Shown piece by piece: positions 24,914 to 59,571 of a stretch of 64,000 nucleotides of DNA. The stretch is from assembly GCA_021730285.1 (NCBI GenBank), contig CP082962.1, positions 4,473,501-4,537,500 of the forward strand, given 5' to 3'. The notes under the pieces are model-generated. The model was not told the DNA's origin. It searched no databases and saw only the letters and a program-made list of their open reading frames with translations. Numbering within the stretch: position 1 is the first letter of the stretch; every line of letters starts with the position of its first letter. The position numbers were made by a program, and so were the translations under genes. Source of the DNA: Desulfovibrio sp. JY (GTDB lineage Bacteria; Desulfobacterota; Desulfovibrionia; Desulfovibrionales; Desulfovibrionaceae).

Positions 24914-25075
24914 GCGAGAGGGGAAACCCTTTAAAAAGGGTTCTCCCCTCTCGCGCTCTCCCCTTCCTAAATTTTTCAATGGCTACGCTTTCACCGTAAC
25001 AACTTAATTCTATTAAGAGTCTTTGGAAGGGGGGTCTGGGGGGAGAACCTTTCTGCAAGAAAGGTTCTCCCCCCA
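24914..25075. repeat. Dispersed three-stem palindromic element, copy 1 (A-B orientation)
   Basis: Hairpin A (24914-24954) has arms GCGAGAGGGGA and TCTCCCCTCTCGC around an AAACCCTTTAAAAAGGGTT core. Hairpin B (25036-25075) has arms CTGGGGGGAGAACCTTTCT and AGAAAGGTTCTCCCCCCAG around GCA. Between them the flanks CTTCCTAAATTTTTCAATG and ATTAAGAGTCTTTGGAAG pair imperfectly around a loop. Reverse-complemented, the copy aligns base by base with copy 3. It lies between kup and tatC. Confidence 0.9.
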
Positions 25076-25197
25076 GCGCCTTTTGGGCAACCACGCGCAA
25101 TCGCTGACGCCCTTGACCCGAATCGTTTCCTGCCGTAACCGCAAGGCGCGGCGCGGACCACCCGGCAATCCGCTTCCCGCCGCAAAATGAGGAGCGC

Positions 25198-26322
25198 ATG
25201 ACCGACACGCCTGAAAAAGACGCCATCGACAATATCCCAGCCACGACCGGCGACGCCGCTACGCCCGCCGAAACCGCTCCGGGCACGCCCGATGCCGGAG
25301 TCCCGGGCGGCAACCCGCCGCCGCCTCCGGCCGATCCCCCCGCCCCTGCCGGCGGCGCCGCCACCCCGCCGGCGACCACGCCGCCGCCTTCGGCCGAAAA
25401 GCATGGGGATATGAAGGAAGCGCCGCTTCTCGAACACCTGGTCGAATTGCGCACGCGCCTGGTGCGTTGTCTGATCGCCGTGGGCGTCGGCTTCGCCGCC
25501 TGCTACGCCTTCGCCGAAAAGCTGCTCGAAATCCTGCTGCTGCCGCTCATGAACGTCATGCCCGGCGGCAGCAAGCTTATCGCCACCAGCCTGCCGGAAA
25601 CCTTTTTCACCGTCATGAAGCTGGCGCTGGTAGCCGGCGCGTTCGTGGCCAGCCCGTACATCTTCTATCAACTCTGGAAATTCGTCGCCCCGGGGCTCTA
25701 CAAGGAAGAGCGCAAGATCATCATCCCCGTGGCCGTGGCCACGGCCGTGTTCTTCGTCGGCGGCGCGCTTTTCGGCTATTTCATCGTGTTTCCGTTCGGG
25801 TTCAAGTTCTTCGTGGACTACGCCTCGAACTACATCACGGTCATGCCGACCATCAGCGCCTACTTTTCGCTGGCCGTAACCCTGCTTTTCGCCTTCGGCA
25901 TCATCTTCGAGCTGCCGGTCTTCATCTTCTTCCTGACCAGCCTCGGGCTCGTCACCACCAAGGCGCTGCGCAAGTTCCGCCGCTGGGCCATCCTGTTGAG
26001 CTTCATCGTGGCCGCCGTCCTCACCCCGACCCCGGACGCCGTGAACCAGCTGCTCATGGCGGGCCCCATGGTCGTCCTCTACGAACTGGGCATCTGGGTG
26101 TCCTGGTTCGTGGACAAGTCGCGCAAGGAGGAAAAGGCGCGCAAGCAGGCCGCGGCAGCCGAGGCCGCGCAGTCCGGTGCCACGAAGACCGCCCAGGCCG
26201 ACGGCGCGGACGCCAAGGCCCAAACGGCCGAGGAAAAGGCCGCAACCAAGGGAAAAGCGGATCAGGCCGCTGCGGCAACGACGCCGAAAACCGACGGCCC
26301 TGACGACGGCTCCCAGGCCTGA
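25198..26322 (+). CDS. tatC: Sec-independent protein translocase TatC with long low-complexity tails
   Basis: The TatC core starts near residue 77 with PLLEHLVELRTRLVRC, the family signature, and runs about 230 residues with six membrane helices. FGIIFELPVFIFFL, RRWAILLSFIVAAVLTPTPD and a final helix are typical. TatC recognises twin-arginine signals; FdhA and HynB in this window both carry one. Unusual are a Pro/Ala-rich N-tail of about 75 residues and an Ala/Lys/Glu-rich C-tail of about 65, making 374 residues against roughly 250 for the family. No tatA or tatB lies adjacent. AATGAGGAGCGC stands before the ATG. Confidence 0.92.
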   Translation: MTDTPEKDAIDNIPATTGDAATPAETAPGTPDAGVPGGNPPPPPADPPAPAGGAATPPATTPPPSAEKHGDMKEAPLLEHLVELRTRLVRCLIAVGVGFAACYAFAEKLLEILLLPLMNVMPGGSKLIATSLPETFFTVMKLALVAGAFVASPYIFYQLWKFVAPGLYKEERKIIIPVAVATAVFFVGGALFGYFIVFPFGFKFFVDYASNYITVMPTISAYFSLAVTLLFAFGIIFELPVFIFFLTSLGLVTTKALRKFRRWAILLSFIVAAVLTPTPDAVNQLLMAGPMVVLYELGIWVSWFVDKSRKEEKARKQAAAAEAAQSGATKTAQADGADAKAQTAEEKAATKGKADQAAAATTPKTDGPDDGSQA

Positions 26323-26346
26323 TAACAGCCCGCATTCACAGCCAGA

Positions 26347-26383
26347 AAGGGGGACGCACCGGCAGGTTGCCGGCGTCCCCCTT
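26347..26383 (+). terminator. Long hairpin after tatC
   Basis: AAGGGGGACG and CGTCCCCCTT pair, and an inner stem ACCGGCA/TGCCGG is offset by a two-base bulge. Only two Ts follow, so it may act with Rho or in both directions. Confidence 0.6.
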
Positions 26384-26763
26384 GACTTCGGCTCCAAGAC
26401 ACGGCATACGTAGACTACAAGCAACGGTTGTCGCCTTCCGGCAGATGCAAGACCGGGATCGCCGTTGCTGCCTGAAAAACCATCCGCATCGGGCAGCCTC
26501 AACGGCGACCGCGTCCCACCCGCGACCAACCAAATCCTTGTCGCAACGACCGCATCATGATGCCTCACGTCGTTGCTCCGCTCCGCGCCGGCTGTCGGCT
26601 CCGGGGCGAATCCTCTCGCTACGCGAGCCACTCCACCACGCGGACGAACCGAGACGGCCTGCCCTGTCGGCAGGCCCATAGGCCCTCCCCTCTCCAAGGC
26701 GTCCCGCCCACGCGGACGCCGGTGCGCATGGCCTCCTCGGCGTCTCGAAGCCATGGAGCGACG
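26384..26763. other. Gene-free stretch with perfect hairpins before the 3D-domain gene
   Basis: About 380 bases without a credible reading frame. GGCCTGCC/GGCAGGCC (26656-26676) and GGCGTCC/GGACGCC (26698-26720) are perfect stems with short loops. A GCGAATCC segment around 26610 looks superficially like a tRNA T-loop, but no cloverleaf forms. It could be a structured leader or hold an unannotated small RNA. Confidence 0.45.
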
Positions 26764-27297
26764 ATGCGACATATTTATTTTACCATACTCACCCTGGCCC
26801 TGGCCGCGACACTGCTCGCCCAACCAGGCTGCGCCAGGACCCGCGACGCCAAGCAAAGCGCCCTGCAGGCATCCCAGGCTCCAAACGCCGCCAAAACACC
26901 ACCCTCCCTCGCCCTGGGCCAAATCGTCGATCCCGGCTCCCTGTTTATCGCGACATCCTCCGCCCCCACCAAGACCCTGCGCGTCAAAGCCATGGCCTAC
27001 ACGGCCTGTTCGGTGGGGAAAAAGAAGTCCAAACGCAAGGCCCGCACAGCGCGCGGCGCCTGGGGCGACACCCTCACCCCCGGCATCAAGGCCGTGGCCG
27101 TCTCGCCCGACCTGCTGGAAATGGGCCTCGATCACGGCGACGTCATCACCATCGAAGGACTGCCCGGCCAGTACAAGGTGCTCGACGTCATGCACAGCCG
27201 CCACGACAAAAGCATCGACATCTTCTACGGAGACGATCAGTGCGGCGCCATCCAATGGGGCCGCCGCAGCCTGACCATCAGTTGGCAGGGAGATTAG
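26764..27297 (+). CDS. 3D-domain envelope protein, possible lipoprotein
   Basis: A 177-residue protein. The N-terminus (MRHIYFTILTLALAATLLAQPGC) is a signal sequence ending in cysteine. The lipobox is imperfect (QPGC), so lipidation is uncertain. From about residue 75 it has a 3D domain: VKAMAYTACS, ARGAWGDTLTPGIKAVAVSPDLL, YKVLDVMHSRHDKSIDIFYG and WGRRSLTISW. 3D domains form the catalytic barrel of MltA-like and related cell-wall enzymes; the aspartates at DVMHSRHDKSIDIFYGD are kept. A role in cell-wall turnover is therefore likely but unproven. GGAG lies before the ATG. Confidence 0.75.
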   Translation: MRHIYFTILTLALAATLLAQPGCARTRDAKQSALQASQAPNAAKTPPSLALGQIVDPGSLFIATSSAPTKTLRVKAMAYTACSVGKKKSKRKARTARGAWGDTLTPGIKAVAVSPDLLEMGLDHGDVITIEGLPGQYKVLDVMHSRHDKSIDIFYGDDQCGAIQWGRRSLTISWQGD

Positions 27298-27317
27298 GGA
27301 AGGGAAAGGAAAGAAGT

Positions 27318-27482
27318 GCGAGAGGGGAACCCTTTTTGAAAAAAGGGTTCCCCTCTCGCGCTCTCCCCTCCCCAAAACTTTCAACGGTCACGCTTGGTAT
27401 AACGTCACCATGCCGTAACCTTTGAAAGTTTTTTGAAAGGGGGTCCGGGGGGAAACTTTTTTTCAAAAAAGTTTCCCCCCGG
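27318..27482. repeat. Dispersed three-stem palindromic element, copy 2 (A-B orientation)
   Basis: Hairpin A (27318-27359) reads GCGAGAGGGGAACCC then GGGTTCCCCTCTCGC with a T-rich/A-rich core. Hairpin B (27445-27482) reads CCGGGGGGAAACTTTTT then AAAAAGTTTCCCCCCGG. The central arms CCCCAAAACTTTCAACGGT and ACCTTTGAAAGTTTTTTG pair. It lies between the 3D-domain gene and a convergent small gene and could end both transcripts. Confidence 0.9.
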
Positions 27483-27501
27483 CATCATTTGTATCCCCGC
27501 C

Positions 27502-27702
27502 CTATGGCAGGACTTCGATCAGCACGTAGCGGGCGGCGAAGCCCAGGGCGTAGACGCAGACAAGGACAAGAAAACAGGCCGTAAAAAGGCCGCGTCCGCC
27601 CCTTCCCTCGGCCAGCTTGGCCAGGACAAAGCCCGCGACCATGGCCAGCAGGATACCGAAGCCCAGGGCCAGGGCCACCTTTTCGAGCGATACGTCGACC
27701 AT
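27502..27702 (-). CDS. Small membrane protein with two spans, 66 aa
   Basis: The sequence starts MVDVSLEKVALALGFGILL. Two hydrophobic segments (ALALGFGILLAMVAGFVLA and LFTACFLVLVCVYALGFAA) are separated by a short basic turn (KLAEGRGGRG). AGAGGGAAAAGAG before the ATG is an acceptable ribosome site. No family is recognised. It lies downstream of citrate synthase on the same strand, with a palindrome-rich gap between. The hydrophobic periodicity and start signal argue it is a real gene. Confidence 0.55.
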   Translation of the reverse strand: MVDVSLEKVALALGFGILLAMVAGFVLAKLAEGRGGRGLFTACFLVLVCVYALGFAARYVLIEVLP

Positions 27703-27752
27703 CTCTTTTCCCTCTTACGATCACACAGCCCGCCCCAGGCCCTGGTTCCTCT

Positions 27753-27848
27753 CCCCCCATCAAAGGGGGGCCGGGGGGAATTCCCCCCGACGGGGTCCAG
27801 GGCAGCGCCCCTGGTGGGGAAGTCCGGAAGGGGCAACGCCCTTTCCGG
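27753..27848. repeat. Second palindromic cluster, between citrate synthase and the small membrane gene
   Basis: Consecutive palindromes are packed in under 100 bases. These are CCCCCC/GGGGGG, a perfect 16-base GGGGGGAATTCCCCCC, CCAGGGC/GCCCCTGG and CCGGAAGGG/CCCTTTCCGG, the last touching the citrate synthase stop. It is unlike the A/B element but shares its G/C-run style. A related GGGGGAATCCCCC follows the rhodanese gene at 41287-41299. Confidence 0.65.
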
Positions 27849-29135
27849 CTACCGCTGATCAAGCGGCACGTAGGGCCGGGGCGGTGGGCCGATGTAGATC
27901 TGGCGCGGCCGATGGATGCGGGTGGTGGGGTCGCGGTTTTCCTCGCGCCAGTGGGCGATCCAGCCGGGCATACGGCCGATGGCGAACATGACCGGGAACA
28001 TGTTGACCGGAATGCCGAGCTCCCGCAGGATGATGCCGGAATAAAAGTCCACATTGGGATAGAGCTTGCGGCTCTTGAAGTAGTCGTCGGAGAGCGCCGC
28101 CTCCTCCAGCTCCCGGGCGATGTCCATGAGCGGGTCGTTGCCGCCGCCCTGCATGACCAGCTCGTGGGCGGCTTTTTTGAGCACCTGGGCCCGGGGGTCG
28201 AAGTTCTTGTAGACCCGGTGGCCGAAGCCCATGAGCCGGCGTTCCTTGCGCTTGACCATCTCCAGATACGACTTGACCTTGTGGCGGCCGGACAGGATCT
28301 GTTCGAGCATCTCGATGACCGCGGCGTTGGCTCCGCCGTGGAGCCTCCCCCACAGGGCGCAGATGCCCGAGGACACGCTGGCGAAAAGGTTGGCCTGGGT
28401 GGAGCCGACCATGCGCACGGTGGAGCAGGAGCAGTTCTGCTCGTGGTCGGCGTGGACCACCAGGAACAGCGACAAGGCCGACACGGCCTGGGGCGTGGGC
28501 TCGAAGTCGCGGTTGGGCATGGAAAACATCATGTGCAGGAAGTTGCGGCAATAGCTGAGGTTCGGGTCCGGATACATGAAGGGCAGGCCCAGGGATTTGC
28601 GGTAGCTGAAGGCCGCGATGGTGCGCACCTTGCTGACGAGCTTGGCCACGGCCTTGGTGAAGGTGTCCATGTTCTGGATCTCGAGCAGCTCCGGATGGTA
28701 GTTGCCGAGGGAATTGATCACGGCGGACAGAATGGCCATGGGCTGGCCGCCCGGCGGGAAACCGTCGAAATGGTGGAGCAGCCCCTCGTGGAGCAGCTCG
28801 TGTTCGGACAGCAGGGTGCGAAAGGCCGTTCGTTCTTCCGCGGTCGGGAGTTTGCCGAAGATCAGCAGCATGGCCGTTTCGATGAACGAACTTTTTTCGG
28901 CCAGCTGCTCGATGGGAATGCCGCGGTAGCGCAGAATGCCCTTTTCGCCGTCGACGAAGGTGATGGCCGACTGGCAGGAGCCGGTGTTGGCGTAGCCGGG
29001 ATCGAAGGTCAAAAGGCTCGCGTCTTTTTCCAGGGAAGTGACGTCGATGCCCACCTCGCCTTCGCTGCCGACGACCACGGGCAGTTCCAGGGTCGTATCG
29101 CCGTATGTAAGGGTGGCGGTTTTGCGTTCGCGCAT
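27849..29135 (-). CDS. gltA: Citrate synthase (Si type)
   Basis: A 428-residue protein of normal type II length. Catalytic landmarks: RLHGGANAAVIEML (first His), MGFGHRVYKNFDPRA (second His) and LYPNVDFYSGI (Asp). FDPGYANTGSCQSAITFVDG near residue 60 fits the Gram-negative, possibly NADH-sensitive subgroup. It condenses oxaloacetate and acetyl-CoA. The start is the ATG behind GAGGAGTCCC; an earlier in-frame start lacks homology. Several sulfate reducers use Re-citrate synthase, so a Si enzyme is worth noting. The gene faces away from fdhA. Confidence 0.95.
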   Translation of the reverse strand: MRERKTATLTYGDTTLELPVVVGSEGEVGIDVTSLEKDASLLTFDPGYANTGSCQSAITFVDGEKGILRYRGIPIEQLAEKSSFIETAMLLIFGKLPTAEERTAFRTLLSEHELLHEGLLHHFDGFPPGGQPMAILSAVINSLGNYHPELLEIQNMDTFTKAVAKLVSKVRTIAAFSYRKSLGLPFMYPDPNLSYCRNFLHMMFSMPNRDFEPTPQAVSALSLFLVVHADHEQNCSCSTVRMVGSTQANLFASVSSGICALWGRLHGGANAAVIEMLEQILSGRHKVKSYLEMVKRKERRLMGFGHRVYKNFDPRAQVLKKAAHELVMQGGGNDPLMDIARELEEAALSDDYFKSRKLYPNVDFYSGIILRELGIPVNMFPVMFAIGRMPGWIAHWREENRDPTTRIHRPRQIYIGPPPRPYVPLDQR

Positions 29136-29213
29136 GGGACTCCTCGTTTCCGCGTGAAGGGGAGAATGGCCGCAAGCGGCCTGGCGTCTGGGTTGCAAGA
29201 TCGCTTAAGGAAA

Positions 29214-29219
29214 AGTATA
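29214..29219 (-). promoter_or_regulatory. -10 box upstream of citrate synthase
   Basis: TATACT on the minus strand, about 80 bases before the ATG, in a short AT-rich patch. No good -35 box is seen at 16-18 bases. Confidence 0.4.
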
Positions 29220-29642
29220 CAAAAATAATTCGGCTTTGTCTCGCGGCCCAAGCGCCCCTCCGCATGCGGCAATCCCCCATGCCCGCCGCTGCCGGCGCGC
29301 CACAGCCCGCCGCCGCCGACAGCACGGCGCCGCATCGCATCCCCCCAACCGCCGCCCCTGCCCTTGGCCTGAACAATCACGCTTCCGGCCGGCCTCTGAC
29401 AGTTTGGGAAAATATTTTTTTCCTGTATTTAAAATAGCCTAAATGCATTCTCCGTAAAATTACCGCCCTATCTCCGCATTTTTCCAGATAAAAGCGTGAC
29501 TGTTTGTGCCAACCGTTGCGCAATCCGTTTTTTTTTGCCCGCATCCATCCTTTTTCCTAGAAAAGTAGTGTGCCTGATCAAAGATAGCGGTCTGCTGCCC
29601 GGCAACCGGCCGGGGCATGCGCAACTGGAAAAAGGAGGCGGT
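29220..29642. other. Divergent control region between citrate synthase and formate dehydrogenase
   Basis: About 420 bases without a credible gene. The middle is GC-rich; the part nearer fdhA is AT-rich (around 29405-29480) and contains a TTGCGCAA palindrome near 29515. The fdhA ribosome site AAAGGAGGCGGT ends it. No known operator can be named with confidence. Confidence 0.45.
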
Positions 29643-32600
29643 ATGGGCATTTCGCGTCGTGGGTTCATGAAACTGACTGGGGCCGGCTTGGTCTGCCTGG
29701 GAATAAAGGACCTGGGCTTTGGCGTCCGGTCGGCGGCGGCCTACGCAGCCCCCCTCAAGATCGAGGGATGTAAGGAGATTTTGACCATTTGCGGGTTTTG
29801 CTCCTGCGGCTGCAACATCATCATGTCCGTCAAGGACGGCCAACTGATCAGCTCCGAAGGCGACCCGGACTATCCGGTGAGCGAGGGGGCGCTTTGCGCC
29901 AAGGGCGCGGCCTTCCTGTCCATGCACAAAAACCCCCACCGGCTGCAAAAGCCCCAGTACCGGGCGCCCGGCAGCGACAAGTGGGAGGAGAAGGACTGGG
30001 ACTTCGTGCTTGGCCGCATCGCCCAGCGGGTCAAGGACACCCGGGACAAGGACTTCATCCTCAAAAACGACAAGGGGCAGACTGTCAACCGGGTGGAGAC
30101 GCTGTTCCAGCTCGGCACCTCGCAGATGGACAACGAGGAATGCGCCGTTTCGCACCAAATGCTTCGCAGCCTGGGGGTCGTGTACATGGACCACCAGGCA
30201 CGCGTCTGACACAGCGCCACTGTAGCGGCTCTGGCAGAGTCGTTCGGACGCGGCGCGATGACGAATCACTGGATTGACATCAAGAATGCCAACGCTGTCC
30301 TCATCATGGGCAGCAACGCAGCCGAGCACCATCCCATCTCTTTCAAATGGGTGCTTGCGGCCAAGGACGCCGGGGCGACGGTCATGCACATCGACCCCAA
30401 GTTCTCGCGGACCTCGGCCAGATCCGATTTTCACGTGCCGCTTCGCTCGGGCACCGACATCGCCTTCATGGGCGGCATGGTCAAATACATCCTGGACAAG
30501 GACCTGATCCACAAGGATTACGTGGTCCAGTACACCAACGCGGCCTTTGTTGTTGGCGACGGCTATTCCTTCAAGGACGGCCTGTTCGCCGGCTACGACG
30601 CGGCCACGCGCAAGTACGACCGCAAGAAATGGGGCTTCGCGCTGGACAAGGAAGGCGTGCCCGTACGGGACATGACGCTTAAAAATCCCCGTTGCGTCTA
30701 CCAGCTCATGAAGAAGCACTACAGCCGCTACAACCTGGACAAGGTTTCGGCGGTCACCGGCGTGCCCAAGGACAAGCTGCTCAAGGTGTACGACATCTAC
30801 GCCGCCACCCATGCCCCGGACAAGGCCGGCACGGTCATGTACGCCCTGGGCTGGACCCAGCATTCGGTGGGCGTGCAGAACATCCGGCTGGCCGCCATCA
30901 TCCAGCTGCTACTCGGCAACATCGGCGTGGCCGGCGGCGGCATCAACGCCCTGCGCGGCGAGCCCAACGTCCAGGGCTCCACCGACCACTGCATCCTGTG
31001 GCACATCCTGCCCGGCTACCTGCCCGTGCCCCGGGCCGACTGGCCGACGCTGGCCGATTACCAGAAGGCCAACACACCGGTCACCCACGATCCCAAAAGC
31101 GCCAACTGGTGGGGCAACCGGCCCAAGTACATGGTGAGCCTGCTCAAGGGCTGGATGGGCGAGGCCGGCACGCCGGAGAACGGCTTCGGCTACGACTGGA
31201 TGCCCAAGGTCGAACCGGGCAAGGACTATTCCACGCTGTTCCTGTTCGACAACATGTACAAAGGCAAGGTGCGCGGCGGCTTCATCTACGGCCACAACCC
31301 CTGCCAGAGCATGCCCAACTCCAGCAAGATCCGAAAGGCCATGGACAATCTGGACTGGCTGGTCGTTGGCGAAATCCACAACACCGAGACCAGCGACTTC
31401 TGGCATCGTCCCGGGGTCGATCCCAAGGACGTCAAGACCGAGGTCTTCCTGCTGCCCTCCTGCCAGCGCGGCGAAAAGGACGGCACCATCTCCAACTCCG
31501 GCCGCTGGCACATGTGGCACTTCAAGGGCATCGAACCCATGGGCGAAAGCAAGTCCATGGGCTGGATGGTCGTGGAGATCATGAACCGCGTGCGCGATCT
31601 CTACAAGAAGGAGAAAGGCGCCTTCCCGGAACCGGTCGTCAACCTGGATTGGCCGGAGCACTACGACGCCGATTACATGGCCAGGAAGATCAACGGCTGG
31701 TACACCCGCGACGTCACCGTGGGCGACAAGACGCATAAAAAGGGCGAACAGGTGGCAAGCTTCGTCGCCCTGGCCGACGACGGCTCGACCATCAGCCTCA
31801 ACTGGCTCTACAGCGGCTGCTACGGCCCCTCGGGCAACCTGTCCAAGCGCCGCGACCCGGCCCAGACGCCCATGCAGGCCAAAATCGGCCTTTACCCGGG
31901 CTTTTCTTGGGCCTGGCCGGTCAACCGCCGCATCCTCTACAACCGTGCTTCCGTGGACCTCAACGGCAAACCGTTCAGCGCGGACAAGCCGGTCATCGAG
32001 TGGAAGGACGGCAAATGGGTGGGCGATGTGCCGGACGGCGGCTGGCCGCCCATGGCCGACCCCAAGGGCAAGTACCCGTTTATCATGCAGACCGAGGGCC
32101 ACGGTCAGGCCTACGGCCCCGGCCGGGTGGACGGCCCCCTGCCGGAACACTACGAGCCGGCCGAGACGCCCCTTGTCGCCAACCCCTTCTCCAAGCAGCT
32201 GAGCAACCCCTGCATGCTGCTGGCGGAAAGCGACATGGACATCCTGGCCAAGCCCGGTGATCCAAAATACCCCGTGGTGCTGACCACCTACGGCGTGACC
32301 GAGCACTGGTGCGGCGGCGGCGACACGAGAAACACCCCGGTGCTGCTCGAAGCCGAGCCCCAGCTCTACGTGGAGATGGACCCCGAGCTGGCCAAGAAAC
32401 AGGGAATCAAAAACGGCGATCCCGTGGTCATCGAAAGCATCCGGGGCAAGGTCGAGGCCATCGCCATGGTCACCGTGCGCATGACGCCGCTTACGGTGCA
32501 GGGCAAGACCGTGCACCTGGTCGGCATGCCGTTTTGCTTCGGCTGGACCACGCCTGGCGTCGGCGACGCCACCAACCGGCTGACCCCGTCCGTGGCCGAC

Positions 32601-32681
32601 CCCAATACCGCCATTCCCGAGTACAAGGCCTGCATGGTCAATGTGCGCAAGGCGGACAAGGTCACGGAACTCTTCGTCTAA
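29643..32681 (+). CDS. fdhA: Periplasmic formate dehydrogenase catalytic subunit, selenocysteine-containing
   Basis: A 1012-residue molybdopterin/tungstopterin enzyme if the in-frame TGA at 30207-30209 is read as selenocysteine 189. The context is exactly that of Sec formate dehydrogenases: DHQARV-Sec-HSATVAALAESFGRGAMTN. The N-terminus has a twin-arginine signal (SRRGFMKL). A 4Fe-4S motif follows (CGFCSCGC, then GALCAKG). GSNAAEHHP and later MGD-binding blocks continue in frame to the end, so this is not a broken gene. It oxidises formate in the periplasm with FdhB. AAAGGAGGCGGT precedes the ATG. Confidence 0.96.
30207..30245 (+). ncRNA. UGA selenocysteine codon with candidate bacterial SECIS hairpin
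   Basis: Just after the UGA, GCCA (30216-30219) can pair with TGGC (30232-30235). AGC/GCT pairs inside it, giving an apical loop containing GG about 18 bases from the UGA. That is where SelB-binding hairpins lie in bacterial formate dehydrogenases. The structure is drawn by eye; the selenocysteine call rests mainly on the protein homology on both sides. Confidence 0.7.
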
Positions 32682-32740: not shown

Positions 32741-33472
32741 ATGCCCAAGGCGTTTTTCATCAACACCTCGCGCTGCACCGCCTGTCGCGGCTGCCAGATC
32801 GCCTGCAAGGAATGGCACGGCAACAAGGCCGTGCCCACCCGCCAGCGGGGAACCCATCAAAACCCGCCGGACCTCACCCCCTTCAACTATAAACTGGTGC
32901 GCTTCGCCGAACACTTAATCGACGGCCGGGTGCAATGGCTCTTCTTCCCGGACCAGTGCCGGCACTGCATCAACCCGCCCTGCAAGGACGTGGCGGACTC
33001 CTTCATGCCCGGGGCCATCGTCCAGGACGAGGCCACCGGCGCGGTCCTCTACACCGACAAGACCAAGGAACTCACCATCGACCAGGCCCAGGAAGTGCGC
33101 GACGCCTGCCCCTACAACATCCCCCGCCGCGACGAGGACACGGGACTCGTGCGCAAGTGCGACATGTGCATCGACCGGGTCCAGGCCGGCATGAAGCCCG
33201 CCTGCGTCCATACCTGCTGCACCGGCACCATGAACTTCGGCGAGCGCGACGCCATGCTGGACCTGGCCCACAAGACCCTGGCCAAGGTCAAGGAAAAAAG
33301 CCCCAAGGCGCAGCTTCTCGACGAGGACGACATCAACGTCATCTTCCTCGTCACCGAGCCGCGCAAACTCTACCACGAATACGCCGAACGCCGGGAGCCC
33401 AAGGGCGGTCCCATGACCCGGCAGGCGTTCCTGGCCATGCTGGCCCGGCCCATGAACCGCATGCGCGGTTAG
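32741..33472 (+). CDS. fdhB: Formate dehydrogenase iron-sulfur subunit
   Basis: A 243-residue ferredoxin-type subunit. Cysteine groups for four 4Fe-4S clusters are visible: CTACRGCQIACKEWHG, CRHCINPPCKDV, CPYNIPRRDED and CDMCIDRVQAGMKPACVHTCCTG. It passes electrons from FdhA towards periplasmic cytochrome c3 in Desulfovibrio-type enzymes. A GTG two codons earlier is too close to the AAAGGAG; the ATG used here is seven bases away. It has no signal peptide and would be exported with FdhA through Tat. It ends 19 bases before copy 3 of the palindromic element. Confidence 0.94.
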   Translation: MPKAFFINTSRCTACRGCQIACKEWHGNKAVPTRQRGTHQNPPDLTPFNYKLVRFAEHLIDGRVQWLFFPDQCRHCINPPCKDVADSFMPGAIVQDEATGAVLYTDKTKELTIDQAQEVRDACPYNIPRRDEDTGLVRKCDMCIDRVQAGMKPACVHTCCTGTMNFGERDAMLDLAHKTLAKVKEKSPKAQLLDEDDINVIFLVTEPRKLYHEYAERREPKGGPMTRQAFLAMLARPMNRMRG

Positions 33473-33491: not shown

Positions 33492-33654
33492 CTGGGGGGA
33501 AACCTTTCTTGCAGAAAGGTTCTCCCCCCAGACCCCCTTTCCAAAGACTTTTAATAGAATGAAGTTGTTACGGTGAGAATCGTAGCCATTGAAAACTTTA
33601 GGAAGGGGAGAGCGCGAGAGGGGACAACCCTTTTTAAAGGGTTTCCCCTCTCGC
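33492..33654. repeat. Dispersed three-stem palindromic element, copy 3 (B-A orientation)
   Basis: Hairpin B (33492-33531) has CTGGGGGGAAACCTTTCT and AGAAAGGTTCTCCCCCCAG. Hairpin A (33614-33654) has GCGAGAGGGGACAACCC and GGGTTTCCCCTCTCGC. The central arms CCTTTCCAAAGACTTTTAAT and ATTGAAAACTTTAGGAAGG pair around a 30-base loop. It divides fdhAB from fdhE. Confidence 0.9.
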
Positions 33655-33694: not shown

Positions 33695-34573
33695 ATGAGC
33701 GCTTGCACACCGGCCGAAGTGACGGGCCTTGACGCGATCCTGCCGGCTTTTTCCGCCCTGGCCGCCCTGCGCCGGGAGGCAGCCGCCGCGTTGCCCGACT
33801 GGCCCTTGGAAATCCCCCACGATCCCGACGCGTTCGCGGCGGGCGAACCGCTGCTTGCCTTGCTGCCCGCTCACCGGCTGGCCCCGGGCTTTCTGGCTGC
33901 CGCCGAGTTGATGTTGCCGCGGCTCGGAGAAATTTTTCCGCCCCTGGCCCGGGAGACGACGGTGCTCGGCCAGGCGCTGGCCATGGGACCCCGCGCGGCC
34001 GAACCGCTGCTTGCCGCCTATACCGACGCCCGCCTGGAGGACATCGCCCTGCTGGCCGGCGAGATGGGCCTGGACCCGCACGCCCTGCCCTTCCTGACCC
34101 ACGAAATTCTCTCGGCCGTGTTGCGTCGGTCGGCGGCCACCCTGTCCCCCCTGGCCGACGACGCCTTGTGGCAACGCGCCTCCTGCCCGGTGTGCGGCTC
34201 CCCGCCGGCCATGGGCATGCTCAAGGACAAGCCGGACCCGTCGGAATTTCTCATCTCCAAGGCGGGCCGGCTCATGCTTTCCTGCTCGCTGTGCGGCCAT
34301 CTCTGGCGCTTCCCCAGGCTCAAATGCCCGACGTGCGGCGAACTTTCCCACGAAAAGCTCGACGTGCTGACCGTGGCCGAGCATCCCCGGGAACGCATCC
34401 ACACCTGCTCGACCTGCAAGCATTACCTGATCGTGGTGGACCGGGTGGACCAGGACGAGCCGCTGGATATGGACGTCGCCCCGGCCGGGCTGGCCCACCT
34501 CGACGCCGTGGCCCAGGCGCGAGGGTTCACGCCCATCTGCCCCGCGCCCTGGAACCAGTTTCCTGAAGAGTAG
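33695..34573 (+). CDS. fdhE: Formate dehydrogenase accessory protein FdhE
   Basis: A 292-residue protein. The C-terminal half holds the rubredoxin-like cysteine pairs of FdhE: CPVCGSPP, CSLCGHLW, CPTCGEL and CSTCKHYL. The family assists maturation or reductive handling of formate dehydrogenase before export, in the cytoplasm. AAAGGAGCCC lies before the ATG. It follows fdhB after the palindromic element, so it may be transcribed at a different level from fdhAB. Sequence outside the cysteine motifs is divergent, as usual for the family. Confidence 0.9.
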   Translation: MSACTPAEVTGLDAILPAFSALAALRREAAAALPDWPLEIPHDPDAFAAGEPLLALLPAHRLAPGFLAAAELMLPRLGEIFPPLARETTVLGQALAMGPRAAEPLLAAYTDARLEDIALLAGEMGLDPHALPFLTHEILSAVLRRSAATLSPLADDALWQRASCPVCGSPPAMGMLKDKPDPSEFLISKAGRLMLSCSLCGHLWRFPRLKCPTCGELSHEKLDVLTVAEHPRERIHTCSTCKHYLIVVDRVDQDEPLDMDVAPAGLAHLDAVAQARGFTPICPAPWNQFPEE

Positions 34574-34582: not shown

Positions 34583-34751
34583 GGCGCCGGGGGGAAACTT
34601 TTTTGAAAAAAAGTTTCCCCCCGGCGCCCCTTTCAAAAAACTTTAACGGTTACAATATGATACCGTCTCTGCACCACTCACCGTTGAAAGTTTTGGGGAG
34701 GAGAGAGCGCGAGAGGGGAACCCTTTTTTCCAAAAAGGGTTCCCCTCTCGC
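34583..34751. repeat. Dispersed three-stem palindromic element, copy 4 (B-A orientation)
   Basis: Hairpin B (34583-34628) is extended here to GGCGCCGGGGGGAAAC and GTTTCCCCCCGGCGCC. Hairpin A (34709-34751) has GCGAGAGGGGAACCC and GGGTTCCCCTCTCGC. The central arms CTTTCAAAAAACTTTAACGGT and ACCGTTGAAAGTTTTGGGG pair. The loop sequence differs from copies 1, 3 and 5, but the stem is kept. Confidence 0.9.
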
Positions 34752-39138: not shown

Positions 39139-39215
39139 GGCGAGAGGGGAAACCCTTTCAAAAGAGCAATCGTCCTTCCCGCGTTTTTCCCTTCCTAACG
39201 TTTTATCTTTCAGAG
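39139..39215. repeat. Degraded copy of the dispersed palindromic element
   Basis: GGCGAGAGGGGAAACCCTTT is an intact left arm of hairpin A. The right arm is decayed to short C-rich fragments and hairpin B is absent. CCCTTCCTAACGTTTTA is a remnant of the central arm. It lies just after the PilZ-like gene, the same position relative to a stop codon as the intact copies. Confidence 0.6.
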
Positions 39216-39315
39216 AGTTACATCAATTTCTTCCTCCTCCCCCAAAGCCCCGGACCTGTACGGACAGGCCCAGGCGGGGTATGAGGACGCATCCCGAAAC
39301 GGAGGCACGCTTTTT

Positions 39316-41964: not shown

Positions 41965-42124
41965 CTGGGGGGAAACTTTTCTGAAGAAAAGTTTCCCCCC
42001 AGACCCCCCTTCCAAAGACTTTAATAGAATGCAGTAGTTGCGGTGAAAAACAACCCCGTTGAAAACTTTAGGAAGGGGAGAGCGCGAGAGGGGAGAACCC
42101 TTTTTAAAGGGTTTCCCCTCTCGC
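41965..42124. repeat. Dispersed three-stem palindromic element, copy 5 (B-A orientation)
   Basis: Hairpin B (41965-42002) is CTGGGGGGAAACTTTTCT / AGAAAAGTTTCCCCCCAG. Hairpin A (42084-42124) is GCGAGAGGGGAGAACCC / GGGTTTCCCCTCTCGC. The central arms CCTTCCAAAGACTTTAATAG and GTTGAAAACTTTAGGAAGG pair. It lies between two codirectional genes. Confidence 0.9.
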
Positions 42125-46139: not shown

Positions 46140-46667
46140 ATGTCCGATACCCCGCGCAAAATCCTCATCCTTGGCGTCGGCAACATCCTCTACACCGACG
46201 AAGGCGTCGGCGTGCGGGCCGTGGAGCGCCTTCTCGAAACCTACGATTTTTCCGACAACGTCACCCTCATGGACGGCGGCAACCTGGGCATGAAGCTCAT
46301 GCAGCCCCTTATGGACTGCGACTATTGCATCGTGCTCGACGCCGTGCTCGGCGGCGACGCCCCCGGCACCGTCTACCGCCTCACCGGCGAGGACCTGCGC
46401 AAGTCCCTGGCCTTCAAGGACTCCATGCACCAGTCCGACCTCGTGGACACGCTGATCTACTGCGAACTGATCGGCAAGCGGCCGGAAGCCGTGGTCATCG
46501 GCATGGAACCCGTCGATTTTCAAAACATGAGCGTCGAACTTACCCCCACCATCGCCGACCGCATCCCGGCCATGATCGACATCGCCCTGGCCGAACTCGC
46601 CGACGTCGGCGGCGTCGCCACGCCCAAGAAGGGCGCGGGAGGAGATGCGAGAGGGGAAACCCTTTAA
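46140..46667 (+). CDS. HyaD/HycI-type [NiFe] hydrogenase maturation protease
   Basis: A 175-residue endopeptidase. ILGVGNILYTDEGVGV holds the first nickel-binding Glu, VLDAVLGGD the Asp, and DSMHQSDLVDTL the His. It removes the C-terminal tail of HynA after nickel insertion. AAGGAGGTCGC lies before the ATG. The last six residues (ARGETL) and the stop are encoded inside hairpin A of palindromic element copy 6. The native C-terminus was therefore replaced or extended when the element arrived. The catalytic part is unaffected. Confidence 0.92.
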   Translation: MSDTPRKILILGVGNILYTDEGVGVRAVERLLETYDFSDNVTLMDGGNLGMKLMQPLMDCDYCIVLDAVLGGDAPGTVYRLTGEDLRKSLAFKDSMHQSDLVDTLIYCELIGKRPEAVVIGMEPVDFQNMSVELTPTIADRIPAMIDIALAELADVGGVATPKKGAGGDARGETL

Positions 46668-46823
46668 AAAGGGTTCTCCCCTCTCGCGCTCTCCCCTTCC
46701 TAAAGTTTATAAAGGGGTGAAAGTTGTTCCTGCCAACTAAGGAGGAACCCTGACCTTTATTGAAAGTTTTTGAGGGTGGGGGTCCGGGGGAGGGAACTTT
46801 TTTCAAAAAGTTCCCTCCCCCGG
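46647..46823. repeat. Dispersed three-stem palindromic element, copy 6 (A-B orientation), overlapping a gene end
   Basis: Hairpin A (46647-46687) starts inside the protease coding sequence. Hairpin B (46784-46823) is CCGGGGGAGGGAACTTTT / AAAAGTTCCCTCCCCCGG, in which both arms carry the same AG/CT insertion relative to other copies. The central arms CTTCCTAAAGTTTATAAAGG and CCTTTATTGAAAGTTTTTGAG pair. Confidence 0.9.
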
Positions 46824-49398: not shown

Positions 49399-49569
49399 CG
49401 ACCGGGGGGAAACCTTTCTTGCAGAAAGGTTCTCCCCCCGGACCCCCTTTCCAAAGATCTTTAACGGGTATGGAGCGTGAGCGTTACAGCGCCCGTAACC
49501 GTTAGAAGTTTTTGGGAAGGGAGAGCGCGAGAGGGGAACCCTTTTTTCAAAAAAGGGTTCCCCTCTCGC
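49399..49569. repeat. Dispersed three-stem palindromic element, copy 7 (B-A orientation)
   Basis: Hairpin B (49399-49438) is CCGGGGGGAAACCTTTCT / AGAAAGGTTCTCCCCCCGG. Hairpin A (49527-49569) is GCGAGAGGGGAACCC / GGGTTCCCCTCTCGC. The central arms CTTTCCAAAGATCTTTAACGG and CCGTTAGAAGTTTTTGGGAAG pair. It lies between convergent genes, ending 12 bases before the MscS stop codon. Confidence 0.9.
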
Positions 49570-53901: not shown

Positions 53902-53928
53902 CGGCGGACGTGCATCGGACGTCCGCCG
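53902..53928 (-). terminator. Hairpin after the nitroreductase gene
   Basis: CGGCGGACGT/ACGTCCGCCG is a perfect ten-pair stem with a seven-base loop, 16 bases beyond the nitroreductase stop. It has no T run, so the terminator call is tentative. It may also lie in the malate synthase leader. Confidence 0.45.
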
Positions 53929-53943
53929 ACGGTGCGAAGTGCG

Positions 53944-54564: not shown

Positions 54565-54747
54565 GACGCATGTCTCCTTTGTTTTTCGTCGTGGCAGACG
54601 GCCGCCCAAAATGACGGCCGCAGGTTTGTCCTAGCGCCCCGCCGGGCCCACGGGAAGCCCCGTTTCTGTCGGGGGCTTGCCTGATCCTGCGAAATCGCGC
54701 ATTTTTCAGGGCGCGACAAGCAACTCCCCCCTGCCAAGGACACTTCC

Positions 54748-55644: not shown

Positions 55645-55653
55645 CGGACCGGA

Positions 55654-55992
55654 TCAGCCTATCCGGCTGGCGTCCCCGCCTGACGCGGCGGCGCCGAGGG
55701 GGCGGACTTCGGCGGCGATACGGTCGGGAAGCAGATCGTCCTCGGCTTTCTCGATTTCATAGTCCCGCTGCAGATTGAGCCAGAACCCGGGCGTATTACC
55801 GAAAAAACGCGCCAGTCGGAACGCGGTTTCCGTGGTGATGGACCGTTTGCCGTGGATGATCTTGTGCACCGTCACGGGCGGCACGCCAAGACGTCTGGAC
55901 AGCGCGTTTTGCGAAAGCCCGAGCGGCTTCATGAAATCCTCGTACAGGATTTCGCCGGGATGGATGGGGGGAAGTTTTTCCACGATGTCCAT
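55654..55992 (-). CDS. higA: HigA-type antitoxin
   Basis: A 112-residue protein. PPIHPGEILYEDFMKPLGLSQNALSRRLGVP is the XRE helix-turn-helix of HigA (landmarks HPGEIL, LGLSQNAL). RSITTETAFRLARFFGNTPGFWLNLQRDYE is the family-specific tail. It neutralises the toxin encoded just upstream and represses the operon. The toxin-first order is the normal higBA arrangement. The C-terminus (GAAASGGDASRIG) is longer than average. Confidence 0.92.
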   Translation of the reverse strand: MDIVEKLPPIHPGEILYEDFMKPLGLSQNALSRRLGVPPVTVHKIIHGKRSITTETAFRLARFFGNTPGFWLNLQRDYEIEKAEDDLLPDRIAAEVRPLGAAASGGDASRIG

Positions 55993-56012
55993 AGCCTGTC
56001 CGTTCTCTGTTG

Positions 56013-56297
56013 CTAATGGTAATCGACGATTTCAACCTGATGGGCATTGCCGTTTTCCCAGACGAAACAAATCCGGTATCGGTCGTTGATCCGAACCGAA
56101 AATTGCCCTTTTCTGTCCCCACTCAGCTTCTCCAGCCTGTTTCCCGGCGGAATCGCCATGTCCTGCAAGCGTTCCACGGCATGGAGCTGCCGCAATTTGC
56201 GCCGGGCCGCCTGTTGCAGCGCCGCAGGCAATCGCGGCATGGGCACCCGCCGCAAGAACAACGCTTCGGTATGGGGGCAGGCGAAATCAAGGATCAT
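56013..56297 (-). CDS. higB: HigB-type toxin (RelE/ParE superfamily mRNA interferase)
   Basis: A 94-residue protein ending NDRYRICFVWENGNAHQVEIVDYH, the HigB pattern. LQDMAIPPGNRLEKLSGDRKGQFSVRIN is the core strand region. It would cleave mRNA on the ribosome. The higA start is 20 bases downstream. It begins 17 bases after the tlyA stop, so some transcription may come from tlyA. The N-terminus (MILDFACPHTEALFLRR) has a cysteine that is unusual, but the catalytic basic residues appear kept. Confidence 0.9.
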   Translation of the reverse strand: MILDFACPHTEALFLRRVPMPRLPAALQQAARRKLRQLHAVERLQDMAIPPGNRLEKLSGDRKGQFSVRINDRYRICFVWENGNAHQVEIVDYH

Positions 56298-56313
56298 TAT
56301 CTTTCAGATAATA

Positions 56314-57111
56314 CTAAGCAGGTTCCAGGTCAAACTCAGCGGAGCTGTCCGGACAATTCTCGCCCAGCGAAAACACCACCATATATTCCTGATTGCCCTT
56401 GGGCCCCTTGACCTTGGACGGCACCACGCCGGTGAGCGTCAGCCCCAGTTCGTCGCGGGCGAAATCCGTGACCCGGGCGATCGCCTCCTGGCGATGGGCC
56501 TCCTCGCGCACCACCCCACCCTTGCCCACCTTGTCCGGCGTCAGCTCGAACTGGGGTTTGACCAATACCGCCACCAGCCCGCCGGGCAAAAGAAACCGCA
56601 CGCAGGCCGGCAACACCCTGGTCAGCGAGATGAAGGACACGTCGGCCACCACGGCGTGCACCGGCTCGGGCAGCAAATCGTCCGGCGCATGGCGCAAATT
56701 GACCTGCTCCATGGACACCACGCGCGCATCGGCCCGTAATTTTTCATGCAGCTGGGCCGTGCCCACGTCCACGGCATAGACCCTGACCGCGCCATGCTGG
56801 AGCAGACAATCCGTGAAACCGCCGGTGGACGCGCCGGCATCGAGAGCCACCATGCCCGAGAAATCGAGCCCGAAAGCCTCGATGGCCGTCTCGAGCTTGC
56901 CCCCGCCCCGGCTGACGTAGCGCTCGCCCGGCTCAAGGCGAAAGACCGTGTCCGCCGGAAACATCCGCCCCGGCTTGTCCACGAGCATCTCCCGGCCGTC
57001 GGCCACGAACCGCACCAGCCCGGCCATGACCAGCCGCATGGCCCGCTCCCGCGTTTCGGCCAGCCCCTGCTCGCACACGAGCTGGTCCGCCCGGTATTTT
57101 TCCTTGGCCAT
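56314..57111 (-). CDS. tlyA: TlyA-family rRNA 2'-O-methyltransferase
   Basis: A 265-residue protein. The N-terminal S4 domain is RADQLVCEQGLAETRERAMRLVMAGLV. The FtsJ-like methyltransferase reads YVSRGGGKLETAIEAFGLD, VALDAGASTGGFTDCLLQHGA (SAM motif) and VVADVSFISLTRVLP. The C-terminus holds LVKPQFELTPDKVGKGGVV. TlyA proteins methylate ribosomal RNA; older annotation as hemolysin is doubtful. AGGGGGATCC precedes the ATG. Confidence 0.92.
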   Translation of the reverse strand: MAKEKYRADQLVCEQGLAETRERAMRLVMAGLVRFVADGREMLVDKPGRMFPADTVFRLEPGERYVSRGGGKLETAIEAFGLDFSGMVALDAGASTGGFTDCLLQHGAVRVYAVDVGTAQLHEKLRADARVVSMEQVNLRHAPDDLLPEPVHAVVADVSFISLTRVLPACVRFLLPGGLVAVLVKPQFELTPDKVGKGGVVREEAHRQEAIARVTDFARDELGLTLTGVVPSKVKGPKGNQEYMVVFSLGENCPDSSAEFDLEPA

Positions 57112-57268
57112 GGATCCCCCTGCAAAAGCGCGATTGGACGTGGCCCAAGCCCGCGGCCGCAAAAAGGCCGCCTGCTCCAAACCGTTTTGCCGAAGAGCAC
57201 GGTGCTCCCCAGCCTCCCCAAACAAGGGGAGGACGCATTTTACGTCCGCTATTTTTTAGAAAGACGCG

Positions 57269-58606
57269 CTACGCGTCCGTCTCGCGGCGACCGAGAATGC
57301 GCCGCAACGTATCCTTGGAAATTTCCAGCTCCCGGCAGGCGGCATTGCGATTGCCGCCATGCCGCTCCACCGCCTCGCGCGCCGCCAGGAAACGGACCTC
57401 GGCCATGGTCCGGCCGGTGCGCACCCCACATCCCCCCGACGCGCCACGCAAATGCTCGGGCAGATGGCAGGGCTCGATAACCTGCTCCTGGCACAGGATG
57501 GCCGCGTACTCGATGATGTTTTCCAGCTCCCGGATATTGCCCGGATAGTTGTGGGCCATGAGCTTTTCCATGGCTTCGGGACTGACCGACGAGATGTTTT
57601 TGGCCACGGCCATGCGGCAGCGCCCAAGCACCCGCTCGACGAGCAGCGGCACGTCGCCCGGCCGCTCGCGCAGGGGCGGGATGCGGATCACCACCACATT
57701 TAAACGATAATACAGGTCCTGGCGAAACGATCCCTCGGCCACCATGCGGCCCAGGTCACGATTGGTGGCGGCAATGACCCGCACGTCCGCCGGCAACGTC
57801 TCCACGCCCCCCAGCGGCTCGTAGGAACGTTCCTGGAGCGCGCGCAGGATCTTGGCCTGCATGGCATAGGGCAGGTCGCCGATTTCGTCGAGCAAAAGCG
57901 TGCCGGAATCGGCCAGGGCGAACCGGCCCGGCTTGTCCCGGCGGGCGTCGGTAAAGGCCCCGGACTTGTAGCCGAAAAGCTCCGACTCCATGAGCTGCTC
58001 GGGCAGCGCGCCGCAGTTGACGGCCACGAACGGGCCGGTGCTTCTCTGGGAAAGCTTGTGGATGGCCCGGGCGAAAACCTCCTTGCCCGTGCCGGATTCG
58101 CCAAGCAGCAATACCGTGGAGTCGCTCTGGGCGATCTGGGGCAACATCCGCACGATTTCGGACAGATGCGGGTCGCAGGTCCCGAAATCGTCCAGTGGCT
58201 GCAACCCGGCCAGGCGGCTGACGAAGCCGCCGCCGGACAGGTCGCGGAAAACCTGCACCCCGCCGATGACCATGCCGCCCGTGGCCCAGATCGGGGCCAC
58301 GCTCACGCATACGGGCACATTGGGACAGCCCGTCCGCTTGAGCGTGACGATGCGGTTGGCGATGGGCCGCGCCTCTTCCATGCACTGGCGCAACACGCAC
58401 ACCGACCGGCAGTTGCTGACGCCCAAGACCTCACGACAGGTGCGGCCCACGGCATCGGCGGGCTCGACACGGGCGATTTCCCCGGCGGCGAGGTTGAAAT
58501 AGCGAATGATGAAATCGCGGTCCACGGCGAACACGCCGTCGGCCACGTTCTCCAAGGCGAATGCGCTGGCATCATCGCCGGGAAAGGGGTCAAGGGGTCG
58601 CTTCAT
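57269..58606 (-). CDS. PAS-domain sigma-54-dependent transcriptional activator
   Basis: A 445-residue regulator. A PAS domain fills residues 15-125 (VADGVFAVDRDFIIRYFN) with a cysteine-rich patch (SNCRSVCVLRQCMEE). The AAA+ domain has Walker A GESGTGKE, the sigma-54 contact loop GAFTDA (a common variant of GAFTGA), Walker B LLLDEIGDL and the RELENIIEYAA segment. A Fis-type helix-turn-helix ends it (GNRNAACRELEISKDTLRRIL). The cysteines could sense redox or bind metal, as inferred. It faces the sigma-54 promoter of the next gene. Confidence 0.93.
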   Translation of the reverse strand: MKRPLDPFPGDDASAFALENVADGVFAVDRDFIIRYFNLAAGEIARVEPADAVGRTCREVLGVSNCRSVCVLRQCMEEARPIANRIVTLKRTGCPNVPVCVSVAPIWATGGMVIGGVQVFRDLSGGGFVSRLAGLQPLDDFGTCDPHLSEIVRMLPQIAQSDSTVLLLGESGTGKEVFARAIHKLSQRSTGPFVAVNCGALPEQLMESELFGYKSGAFTDARRDKPGRFALADSGTLLLDEIGDLPYAMQAKILRALQERSYEPLGGVETLPADVRVIAATNRDLGRMVAEGSFRQDLYYRLNVVVIRIPPLRERPGDVPLLVERVLGRCRMAVAKNISSVSPEAMEKLMAHNYPGNIRELENIIEYAAILCQEQVIEPCHLPEHLRGASGGCGVRTGRTMAEVRFLAAREAVERHGGNRNAACRELEISKDTLRRILGRRETDA

Positions 58607-58752
58607 GCAGGCTCCGGCAAGTGTCTCGGCGTGATTGCAGTGTGCGCCCGAAGCCAGACGGGGTCAATGGTAACGGAAGCAAAAATCGTCCACACCGAAG
58701 GTCCGCCAGCAGCATCAACTAGCAACATACTGAAAACAAATAAAAATTCTAT
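58607..58752. other. Region between the sigma-54 activator and its presumed target promoter
   Basis: About 145 bases with mixed GC. It should hold both the activator's own promoter and upstream activator sites. No clear dyad was found by eye; GTGTCT and CACACC fragments might be half-sites. Confidence 0.35.
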
Positions 58753-58768
58753 CGGCACGAAAAGTGCT
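58753..58768 (+). promoter_or_regulatory. Sigma-54 (-24/-12) promoter
   Basis: CGGCACGAAAAGTGCT has GG and GC exactly ten bases apart and matches the consensus TGGCACG-N4-TTGC in all but two fixed positions. It lies about 55 bases before the ATG of the orphan gene and reads away from the sigma-54 activator gene. The same bases also form a small GCAC/GTGC stem before T7, so a terminator reading is possible but less likely in this place. Confidence 0.75.
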
Positions 58769-58823
58769 TTTTTTCCCAATAACGCAGAAGCTGCAATGTA
58801 ATTTTACTCGAAGGAGACGTCAT

Positions 58824-59393
58824 ATGAACCTGAGCCTGACCATCACCGGCATGTGCTGCGATCTGGCGCTGCATCCCGTCGACGACGCGACCGCCGCCCA
58901 GGTCTGCCTGCTTGGCGAAAACCTATACAAGACCAATTCCCTCGAATGGTGGCGCGCCAACGGCAACAACACCTGCGGCATGCGCCTGACCGCCGACTCC
59001 CGGCTGGAGGCCAGTCTCGACGACATGCTCCTGGATATCGAGCCGTCCCAGGTCGCCACCGACGCCGTGACGCTCACCCAGCGCGATTGCATCGACAGCA
59101 GCGAAAACAAGGTCTGCCTGCTCGGCTACGACGACGAGTCCTGCTCCCGCACCTGGACCTGGAGCGGCGTCGAATCTTTCGACCCGGCCAAGTTCCACTT
59201 CATCGTCCAGCGTTGGGACCACATCCTGGGCATGGCCGACTATCTGGTGCTTGAGGACGTCCTGTACGACGGCCGCCCGGCCGACGGTGCAAGCTGGGGC
59301 CAGAGCGAAGGCTTCACCTTCCGCGAGCCCGTGGTCGTGGACATGGACGTGGTGCGAGCCGCCTGCGGCGTCCCCTCCGAGAAGGCTGCCTAG
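58824..59393 (+). CDS. Cysteine-rich protein of unknown family, sigma-54 controlled
   Basis: A 189-residue protein without signal peptide or membrane segment. It has eight cysteines: the CC in GMCCDL, then AQVCLL, NTCGM, RDCIDS, NKVCLL, ESCSRT and RAACGV. The repeated phrase 'VCLLG' occurs twice, near residues 27 and 97. Acidic residues are plentiful. I recognise no domain. AAGGAG lies nine bases before the ATG. The strong -24/-12 promoter and divergent activator imply inducible expression. Element copy 8 follows the stop by 14 bases. Confidence 0.75.
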   Translation: MNLSLTITGMCCDLALHPVDDATAAQVCLLGENLYKTNSLEWWRANGNNTCGMRLTADSRLEASLDDMLLDIEPSQVATDAVTLTQRDCIDSSENKVCLLGYDDESCSRTWTWSGVESFDPAKFHFIVQRWDHILGMADYLVLEDVLYDGRPADGASWGQSEGFTFREPVVVDMDVVRAACGVPSEKAA

Positions 59394-59407
59394 GCGAGGA
59401 GAAGAGG

Positions 59408-59571
59408 CTGGGGGGAAACTTTGTCTTACGAAAGGTTTCCCCCCAGCCCCCCTTCCCAAGACTTTTAGCGAGGAATGAGCCGTACGCTATGTTCGCCAAA
59501 AAAAGTAAAAAATTGAGGAAAGGGAGAGCGCGAGAGGGGAGAACCCTTTTTTAAAGGGTTTCCCCTCTCGC
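59408..59571. repeat. Dispersed three-stem palindromic element, copy 8 (B-A orientation)
   Basis: Hairpin B (59408-59446) is CTGGGGGGAAACTTTG / GAAAGGTTTCCCCCCAG with a damaged apex. Hairpin A (59530-59571) is GCGAGAGGGGAGAACCC / GGGTTTCCCCTCTCGC. The central stem is the most decayed of the eight (CCTTCCCAAGACTTTTAGCGA against TTGAGGAAAGG). Confidence 0.85.

Follow-up and report, generated by a model that had tools for sequence, protein, structure and literature searches.

A dispersed three-hairpin repeat at gene ends in Desulfovibrio sp. JY and related genomes

Introduction

The ERIC, BOX, bcr and Correia-type miniature inverted-repeat transposable elements (MITEs) of bacteria are non-coding, strongly folding sequences of about 100-200 bp, which are dispersed in the genome and carry no gene of their own. 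Uptake sequences are words of about 10 bases that occur in far higher numbers, and pairs of them reportedly act as terminators, i.e., a repeated DNA motif doubles as gene-end terminator hairpins. Repetitive extragenic palindromic (REP) sequences are, in the cited sections, intergenic palindromes located mostly between convergent or same-direction genes, downstream of coding regions (PMC3733652), and are targeted by insertion sequence (IS) elements (PMC1525189). Bacterial interspersed mosaic elements (BIMEs) are described in part of a third paper as binding DNA gyrase and IHF, and REP and BIME sequences are said there to facilitate Rho-dependent termination (PMC2817692). The cited sections of these three papers do not mention Desulfovibrio. 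Here we describe a dispersed repeat of about 165 bp, composed of a hairpin A, a long imperfect central stem and a hairpin B, which is present in eight full copies in a 64,000-nt stretch of Desulfovibrio sp. JY (hereafter the window).

The element adjoins gene ends in two genera and is absent from divergent regions. With moderate confidence, and from sequence comparison, we read it as a repeat of mobile origin that would act as a bidirectional 3'-end element, i.e., in transcription termination and/or protection of mRNA 3' ends. An initial annotation, made from the window alone, had assigned the repeat to no named family. In agreement with this, Rfam families at gathering score gave 0 matches in the window, and no account of such palindromic or dispersed repeats or MITEs in Desulfovibrio was found in the open-licence literature; a description elsewhere is possible.

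Architecture and family size

A covariance model recovered eight full-length copies in the window (E 3e-42 to 3e-29). As the model was trained on these eight copies and 44 others, the window E-values are not independent; the independent evidence for a family is the genome-wide count of exact A hairpins, which was 256 in the genome of strain JY (G000, one contig of 4,686,982 bases) against 0 for the reversed-pattern control. The model also gave eight weaker matches on the opposite strand of the window, because the element is nearly palindromic overall.

Read from A to B, the unit begins with a purine-rich lead and ends with a pyrimidine-rich tail. The arms of hairpin A are GCGAGAGGGG...CCCCTCTCGC and those of hairpin B GGGGGG...CCCCCC. 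The junction after hairpin A reads GCTCTCCC(C)TTCC, and the outer arms of the central imperfect stem read about AAAACTTT and AAAGTCTTT. Hairpin A occurs in at least two versions (cores AAACCCTTT and ACCCTTTTT), both arms being altered together. The A-junction motif CCCTCTCGCGCTCTCCC is a perfect mirror repeat and is kept across genera even when the hairpin core differs.

All eight copies start where first annotated or differ from that position by a few bases, and the orientations were also correctly given (A-B in copies 1, 2 and 6; B-A on the plus strand in copies 3, 4, 5, 7 and 8):

Copy 1, 24914..25076, plus strand: A-B; A 24914-24954, B 25036-25076, central stem between; the stop of the upstream Kup gene ends at 24893.
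Copy 2, 27318..27482, plus strand: A-B; A 27318-27359, B 27445-27482; convergent genes on either side.
Copy 3, 33492..33654, minus strand: B-A; A 33614-33654, B about 33494-33529; follows the formate dehydrogenase beta stop at 33472.
Copy 4, 34583..34751, minus strand: B-A; A 34709-34751, B 34583-34628; follows the stop of an FdhE-like gene at 34573.
Copy 5, 41965..42124, minus strand: B-A; A 42084-42124, B 41965-42002.
Copy 6, 46647..46823, plus strand: A-B; A 46647-46687, B 46784-46823, with the identical insertion in both arms of B that had been annotated; the stop of the HycI-like upstream gene (46667) falls within hairpin A.
Copy 7, 49399..49569, minus strand: B-A; A 49527-49569; convergent genes on either side (49364 and 49581).
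Copy 8, 59406..59571, minus strand: B-A; A 59530-59571, B 59406-59448; convergent genes on either side (59393 and 59842).

A further stretch, 39140-39295, gave a weak model match (28.6 bits) with one GCGAGAGGGG only, and is possibly a decayed copy.

Placement relative to genes

Placement was determined in 804 kb of G000, in which a simple codon-based gene caller yielded 683 genes and which holds 59 elements, of which 41 have A as well as B. Convergent gaps contained 31 of these and tandem gaps 25, whereas divergent gaps contained none; two more lay at sequence edges and one inside a called gene. The 400 gaps of at least 60 bp in the same DNA comprised 73 convergent, 242 tandem and 85 divergent ones, and the chance of finding no divergent copy among 56, weighted by gap length, is about 7e-9. 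The initial observation that no copy lies in a divergent region is thus borne out both by the window and by the 804-kb sample.

The usual element start is 5-40 nt after a stop codon. Regarding the tandem gaps, 24 of the 25 copies begin at most 41 nt past the upstream stop (two overlap the gene end), whereas the distance to the downstream start is broad (22-423 nt); within the free gap, the copies are shifted toward the stop far beyond chance (0 of 20000 simulations). Fifteen of these copies are A-first and ten B-first, and therefore both orientations work or are tolerated. Regarding the convergent gaps, both stops are within 45 nt of the copy in 23 of 31 cases, and 24 of the 31 gaps measure 160-216 bp. 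Most of them amount to the length of the element plus about 20 nt on each side, which leaves little room for another terminator. Within the window, the annotated rule of a plus-strand stop within about 40 bases is borne out by seven of the eight copies (gap 9-34 nt; TAG in six, TAA in one), and in copy 6 the stop is inside hairpin A; copies 2, 7 and 8, lying between convergent genes, have a minus-strand stop on the other side as well.

The same placement was found in G028, a genome of another genus. The 30 copies considered there were the best-scoring and the earlier-fetched ones out of at least 98 model matches, and represent at most 29 independent copies, as the loci L305 and L306 have identical surroundings. 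Seventeen were convergent, 13 tandem and none divergent, in fetched DNA with 21, 41 and 17 such gaps, respectively. Where a gene ends toward hairpin B (23 of 30), the gap between stop and element is 25-27 nt in 15 cases, because the conserved outer end of the element begins there with TAG.

Folding, flanks and covariation

The initial annotation had reported no T run after the element and had accordingly set a simple intrinsic terminator aside. The tracts are indeed short and mixed from T and C, but both outward flanks are pyrimidine-rich (T 35-38%, pyrimidines 68-79%, against 18% and 51% after other stops), and in a terminator scan of 24.5-42.5 kb of the window the three longest stems belonged to element hairpins, although the 27 sites of the scan in total are little above shuffled sequences (mean 19.9, standard deviation 4.8); the dismissal was too quick.

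It had also been noted that pairing is kept while the sequence changes. In the alignment (A2, using 52 of 55 candidates; L017, L204 and L206 were left out) this is clear for hairpin A, with joint changes in the two arms, but weak for the central stem, whose five consensus pairs show no two-sided change. The central segments nevertheless fold better than shuffled sequences (mean z -3.65 for 51 copies, 39 of them below -2). When arms were exchanged between copies, swapped arms equalled own arms in pairing in 602 of 20000 permutations; this test covered 35 of the 51 complete copies in G000, as 13 were of insufficient length, two lacked recognisable arms and one fell beyond the length limits. The central stem is hence supported by folding and weakly by own-arm pairing. 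To take the kept pairing as RNA covariation is not secure, as several orthologous pairs of copies differ in the version of hairpin A or B, exchanged as a block, which points to copying between copies. The paired changes may reflect such copying, or template switching at palindromes, and copying of this kind means that paired hairpin changes are not proof of selection on RNA.

Distribution and history

The same-genus set comprised 14 genomes, including G000 and its sister G005 (about 90% identity). G005 has 219 exact A hairpins; the other 12 have one each in G002 (with a different core and flank) and G004, and none in the remaining ten. The oriented junction motif, allowing at most one mismatch, occurs 266 times in G000, 246 times in G005 and 69 times in G028, and 0 to 12 times in the remaining 196 of 199 genomes. 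(For CCCTCTCGCGCTCTCCC, being a mirror repeat, the reversed-pattern control is uninformative.) A covariance-model search of 15 selected genomes of the family (E <=1e-12) gave at least 98 matches in G028, 11 in G063, three in G067, two each in G023, G043 and G096, one each in G044 and G053, and none in seven. The G028 copies probably represent a second, separate expansion.

At the laxer E <=0.001, 14 to 91 matches per genome were obtained in the 12 other genus members. These are not counted as family members; they may be driven by short B-like GC-rich GGGGGTCCGGGGGG hairpins, which are present in those genomes, or may be diverged copies. In eight relatives, the model found no copy (E <=0.01) in the 160 kb that corresponds to the window region. 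Over the whole collection, the A-hairpin pattern yielded at least 118 stretches in many phyla, of which one (L073) was inspected; chance or unrelated terminators are possible among the rest. Short GCGAGAGGGGGG...CCCCCCTCTCGC hairpins adjoin the same GCTCTCCC junction in a different setting, three within 5 kb (L073; loci L160 and L161 of G115 and G137).

At one place, next to a methyltransferase-like gene (recognised by eye), the element is shared by all nine genomes examined there (G000, G005, G004, G003, G006, G007, G008, G009 and G001), of the 14 of the genus. The copy at site 1 is present in G000 and G005 and missing at the orthologous place in G004, G013, G003, G012, G008, G001 and G006. 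The copy at site 3 is likewise present in G000 and G005, whereas G004, G013, G002, G012, G008 and G001 have a different GC-rich, terminator-like hairpin after the same stop; three of these six were folded and gave -35.6 to -44.0 kcal/mol.

Comparing 33 G000 copies with the fetched G005 DNA, 12 sites were occupied in G005, one was not, three were rearranged or broken, six had one flank only and 11 were uncovered. In the opposite direction, 35 G005 copies gave 16 occupied sites in G000, three without the motif, three rearranged, four with one flank and nine uncovered. Two of the three motif-less sites keep a diverged element, and one has lost it with the purine lead left behind. Thus, of the 19 G005 copies whose two flanks map to a single locus of G000, 18 have an occupied site there, and this shared occupancy implies little recent movement. 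Identity over the element region averages 85% (range 67-96%) in 13 orthologous pairs; 16 had been chosen, and three at rearranged places, with a possible half exchange, were set aside. The simplest account would start from a single old copy in the genus that expanded greatly before G000 and G005 split, the lineage of G028 having undergone an expansion of its own.

Proposed role

In a few lineages of the Desulfovibrionaceae, the element probably multiplied as a small mobile unit. A transcript arriving from either side would meet two very stable hairpins and then a T/C-rich stretch. To judge from stem length and GC content, either hairpin would be strong enough to pause RNA polymerase, and the outcome would be the end of transcription and/or an mRNA 3' end protected by a hairpin. 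Because the tails are mixed from T and C, the mode may be intrinsic termination, Rho-helped termination or mainly 3'-end protection. Between convergent genes, a single copy could serve both and keep each transcript out of the other. The candidates first proposed were a mobile element, a protein-binding site or a 3'-end RNA stabiliser; the evidence favours a combination of the first and last.

Several observations weigh against such a role. The T tracts are short and interspersed with C. At tandem sites, the gene-distal tails are no richer in T than the proximal ones (17 versus 23 tails, p = 0.52). Convergent gene ends that have no element fold well too (mean -33.8 versus -36.0 kcal/mol), and the element is therefore not the sole solution. 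Copy 5 has no counterpart in G005, which has about 1.8 kb of other sequence there without an A motif, so a given site can do without the element. Finally, the placement at gene ends would also fit a neutral element that survives only where it is harmless.

If the proposed role is correct, a mobile repeat holds the transcript ends at 31 of the 73 convergent pairs (gaps of at least 60 bp in 804 kb) and has probably expanded separately in two genera. This would permit a direct test of how a selfish repeat becomes general transcription machinery, and the copies would form a natural, sequence-varied set of candidate bidirectional terminators in sulfate reducers.

Mobility and alternative explanations

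The alternative that survives best, although we judge it rather unlikely, is a MITE-like element that is purely selfish: it would target stop codons or sequence resembling a terminator and be tolerated at gene ends, with no function for the host. It would account for an amplification that is patchy and confined to certain lineages (exact A hairpins: 256 and 219 versus 0-1 in 12 relatives; model matches: at least 98 in G028 versus 0-11 in the 14 others searched). It would also suit the ends of the element in G028: read inward, many copies have TAGRGCA...TTTGAAAA on the left and the right alike, which resembles terminal inverted repeats next to a TA; the ends in G000 are purine-rich only. The stop codons adjoining elements in G000 are also skewed (TAG 39, TAA 28, TGA 12), compared with control genes that have a free downstream gap and no element (114, 86 and 115; p = 2e-4 for TGA). 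On the other hand, most convergent gaps with an element leave little room for another terminator, relatives hold another hairpin in its place at site 3, and copies persist at orthologous sites. No parent transposase was identified, no whole-genome search with the element ends having been made.

From the skew and the ends, the TA of a stop codon may be the insertion target. In the relatives, the stop at site 2 is two codons earlier than in G000, which is not what clean insertion into a stop codon predicts. Regarding target-site duplications, no clean recent empty site was found: one dimorphic site resembles a deletion, and 40 fetched contigs of G067 gave none. We put forward, tentatively, that the element might be a transposable gene-ending cassette, the purine-first ends of which convert the TA of a stop codon to TAG or TAA, i.e., a harmless entry that carries a two-way terminator. 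Overlapping convergent stops would then be the ideal target, and a large share of the transcript ends of a genome would have been re-wired in some lineages.

It is quite improbable that the element is a BIME-like DNA site bound by a protein (e.g., gyrase or a nucleoid protein), any RNA function being incidental: very strong palindromes, both orientations and a high copy number would suit such a site, but the tight spacing from stop codons and the absence from divergent gaps are not readily explained by it. Least probable is a classical REP mobilised by a REP-associated tyrosine transposase (RAYT), which the element resembles in single-hairpin size, intergenic location and targeting by insertion sequences, as the complete G000 has 0 matches to Y1_Tnp (PF01797), the sole Y1_Tnp of G005 belongs (by eye) to an IS200/IS605-like unit with no element motif in the surrounding 3.4 kb, and no GTAG or CGTC tag is found at the hairpins. 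The bases beside hairpin A (by eye) are mostly GAT, GGT, AGT or AAT before GCGAG in G000 and mostly CATT or CGTT in G028.

Insertion sequences and rearrangements at the element

An insertion sequence of 1033 bp, which has a transposase of the IS1595 type (PF12762), is present in 13 nearly identical copies in G000 (L279-L291; e.g., at 1968727, 3605142 and 4461260). Twelve of the 13 lie in elements, 11 being recognised by the A motif and L279 by eye from hairpin B, and the insertions are mostly within the central AAANYTTT arms; 8-bp duplications (e.g., AAAACTTT) accompany each of the 13. A second repeated sequence, starting with CCTATGTGGCCC, follows the right arm AAAGTCTTT at L009, L011 and L282 and is probably another insertion sequence. 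A rearrangement junction also coincides with an element (position 95325 of contig C1 of G005 joins positions 3761533 and 3584709 of G000), and about 6 kb enclosed by two copies in opposite orientation (G000 1779671-1785712) are inverted relative to G005. If the element is a mobile repeat with a role at 3' ends, it would also be a landing site for the IS1595-type element and a source of genome rearrangement.

Other features of the window

The formate dehydrogenase alpha gene is split over two open frames (29568-30209 and 30258-32681), the second of which matches the family model from position 212 onward only; this looks like an in-frame TGA read as selenocysteine. At 10303-18898, five similar genes, each encoding about 500 amino acids, are arrayed in tandem, with roughly 80% DNA identity (from cross-matches with G005); two of them were scanned and had no Pfam match.

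Comparison with known systems

Regarding the systems named at the outset, the element resembles REP and BIME sequences as a high-copy intergenic palindrome located mostly in convergent or tandem gaps. It differs in being a fixed unit of 165 bp with three hairpins, whereas REP units measure 20-40 bp, in having neither the GTAG/CGTC tag nor a RAYT match in the genome, and in having ends that adjoin stop codons. With the ERIC, BOX, bcr and Correia-type MITEs it shares size, folding, dispersal and the lack of an own gene; to our knowledge, neither strict convergent or 3'-end placement nor the layout of A, central stem and B has been described for these. Compared with the uptake-sequence pairs, it is long and composite. 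The element is thus an intergenic palindrome of the REP-like kind, probably of mobile origin, which has an architecture of its own and lacks both the RAYT and the tag by which REPs are defined.

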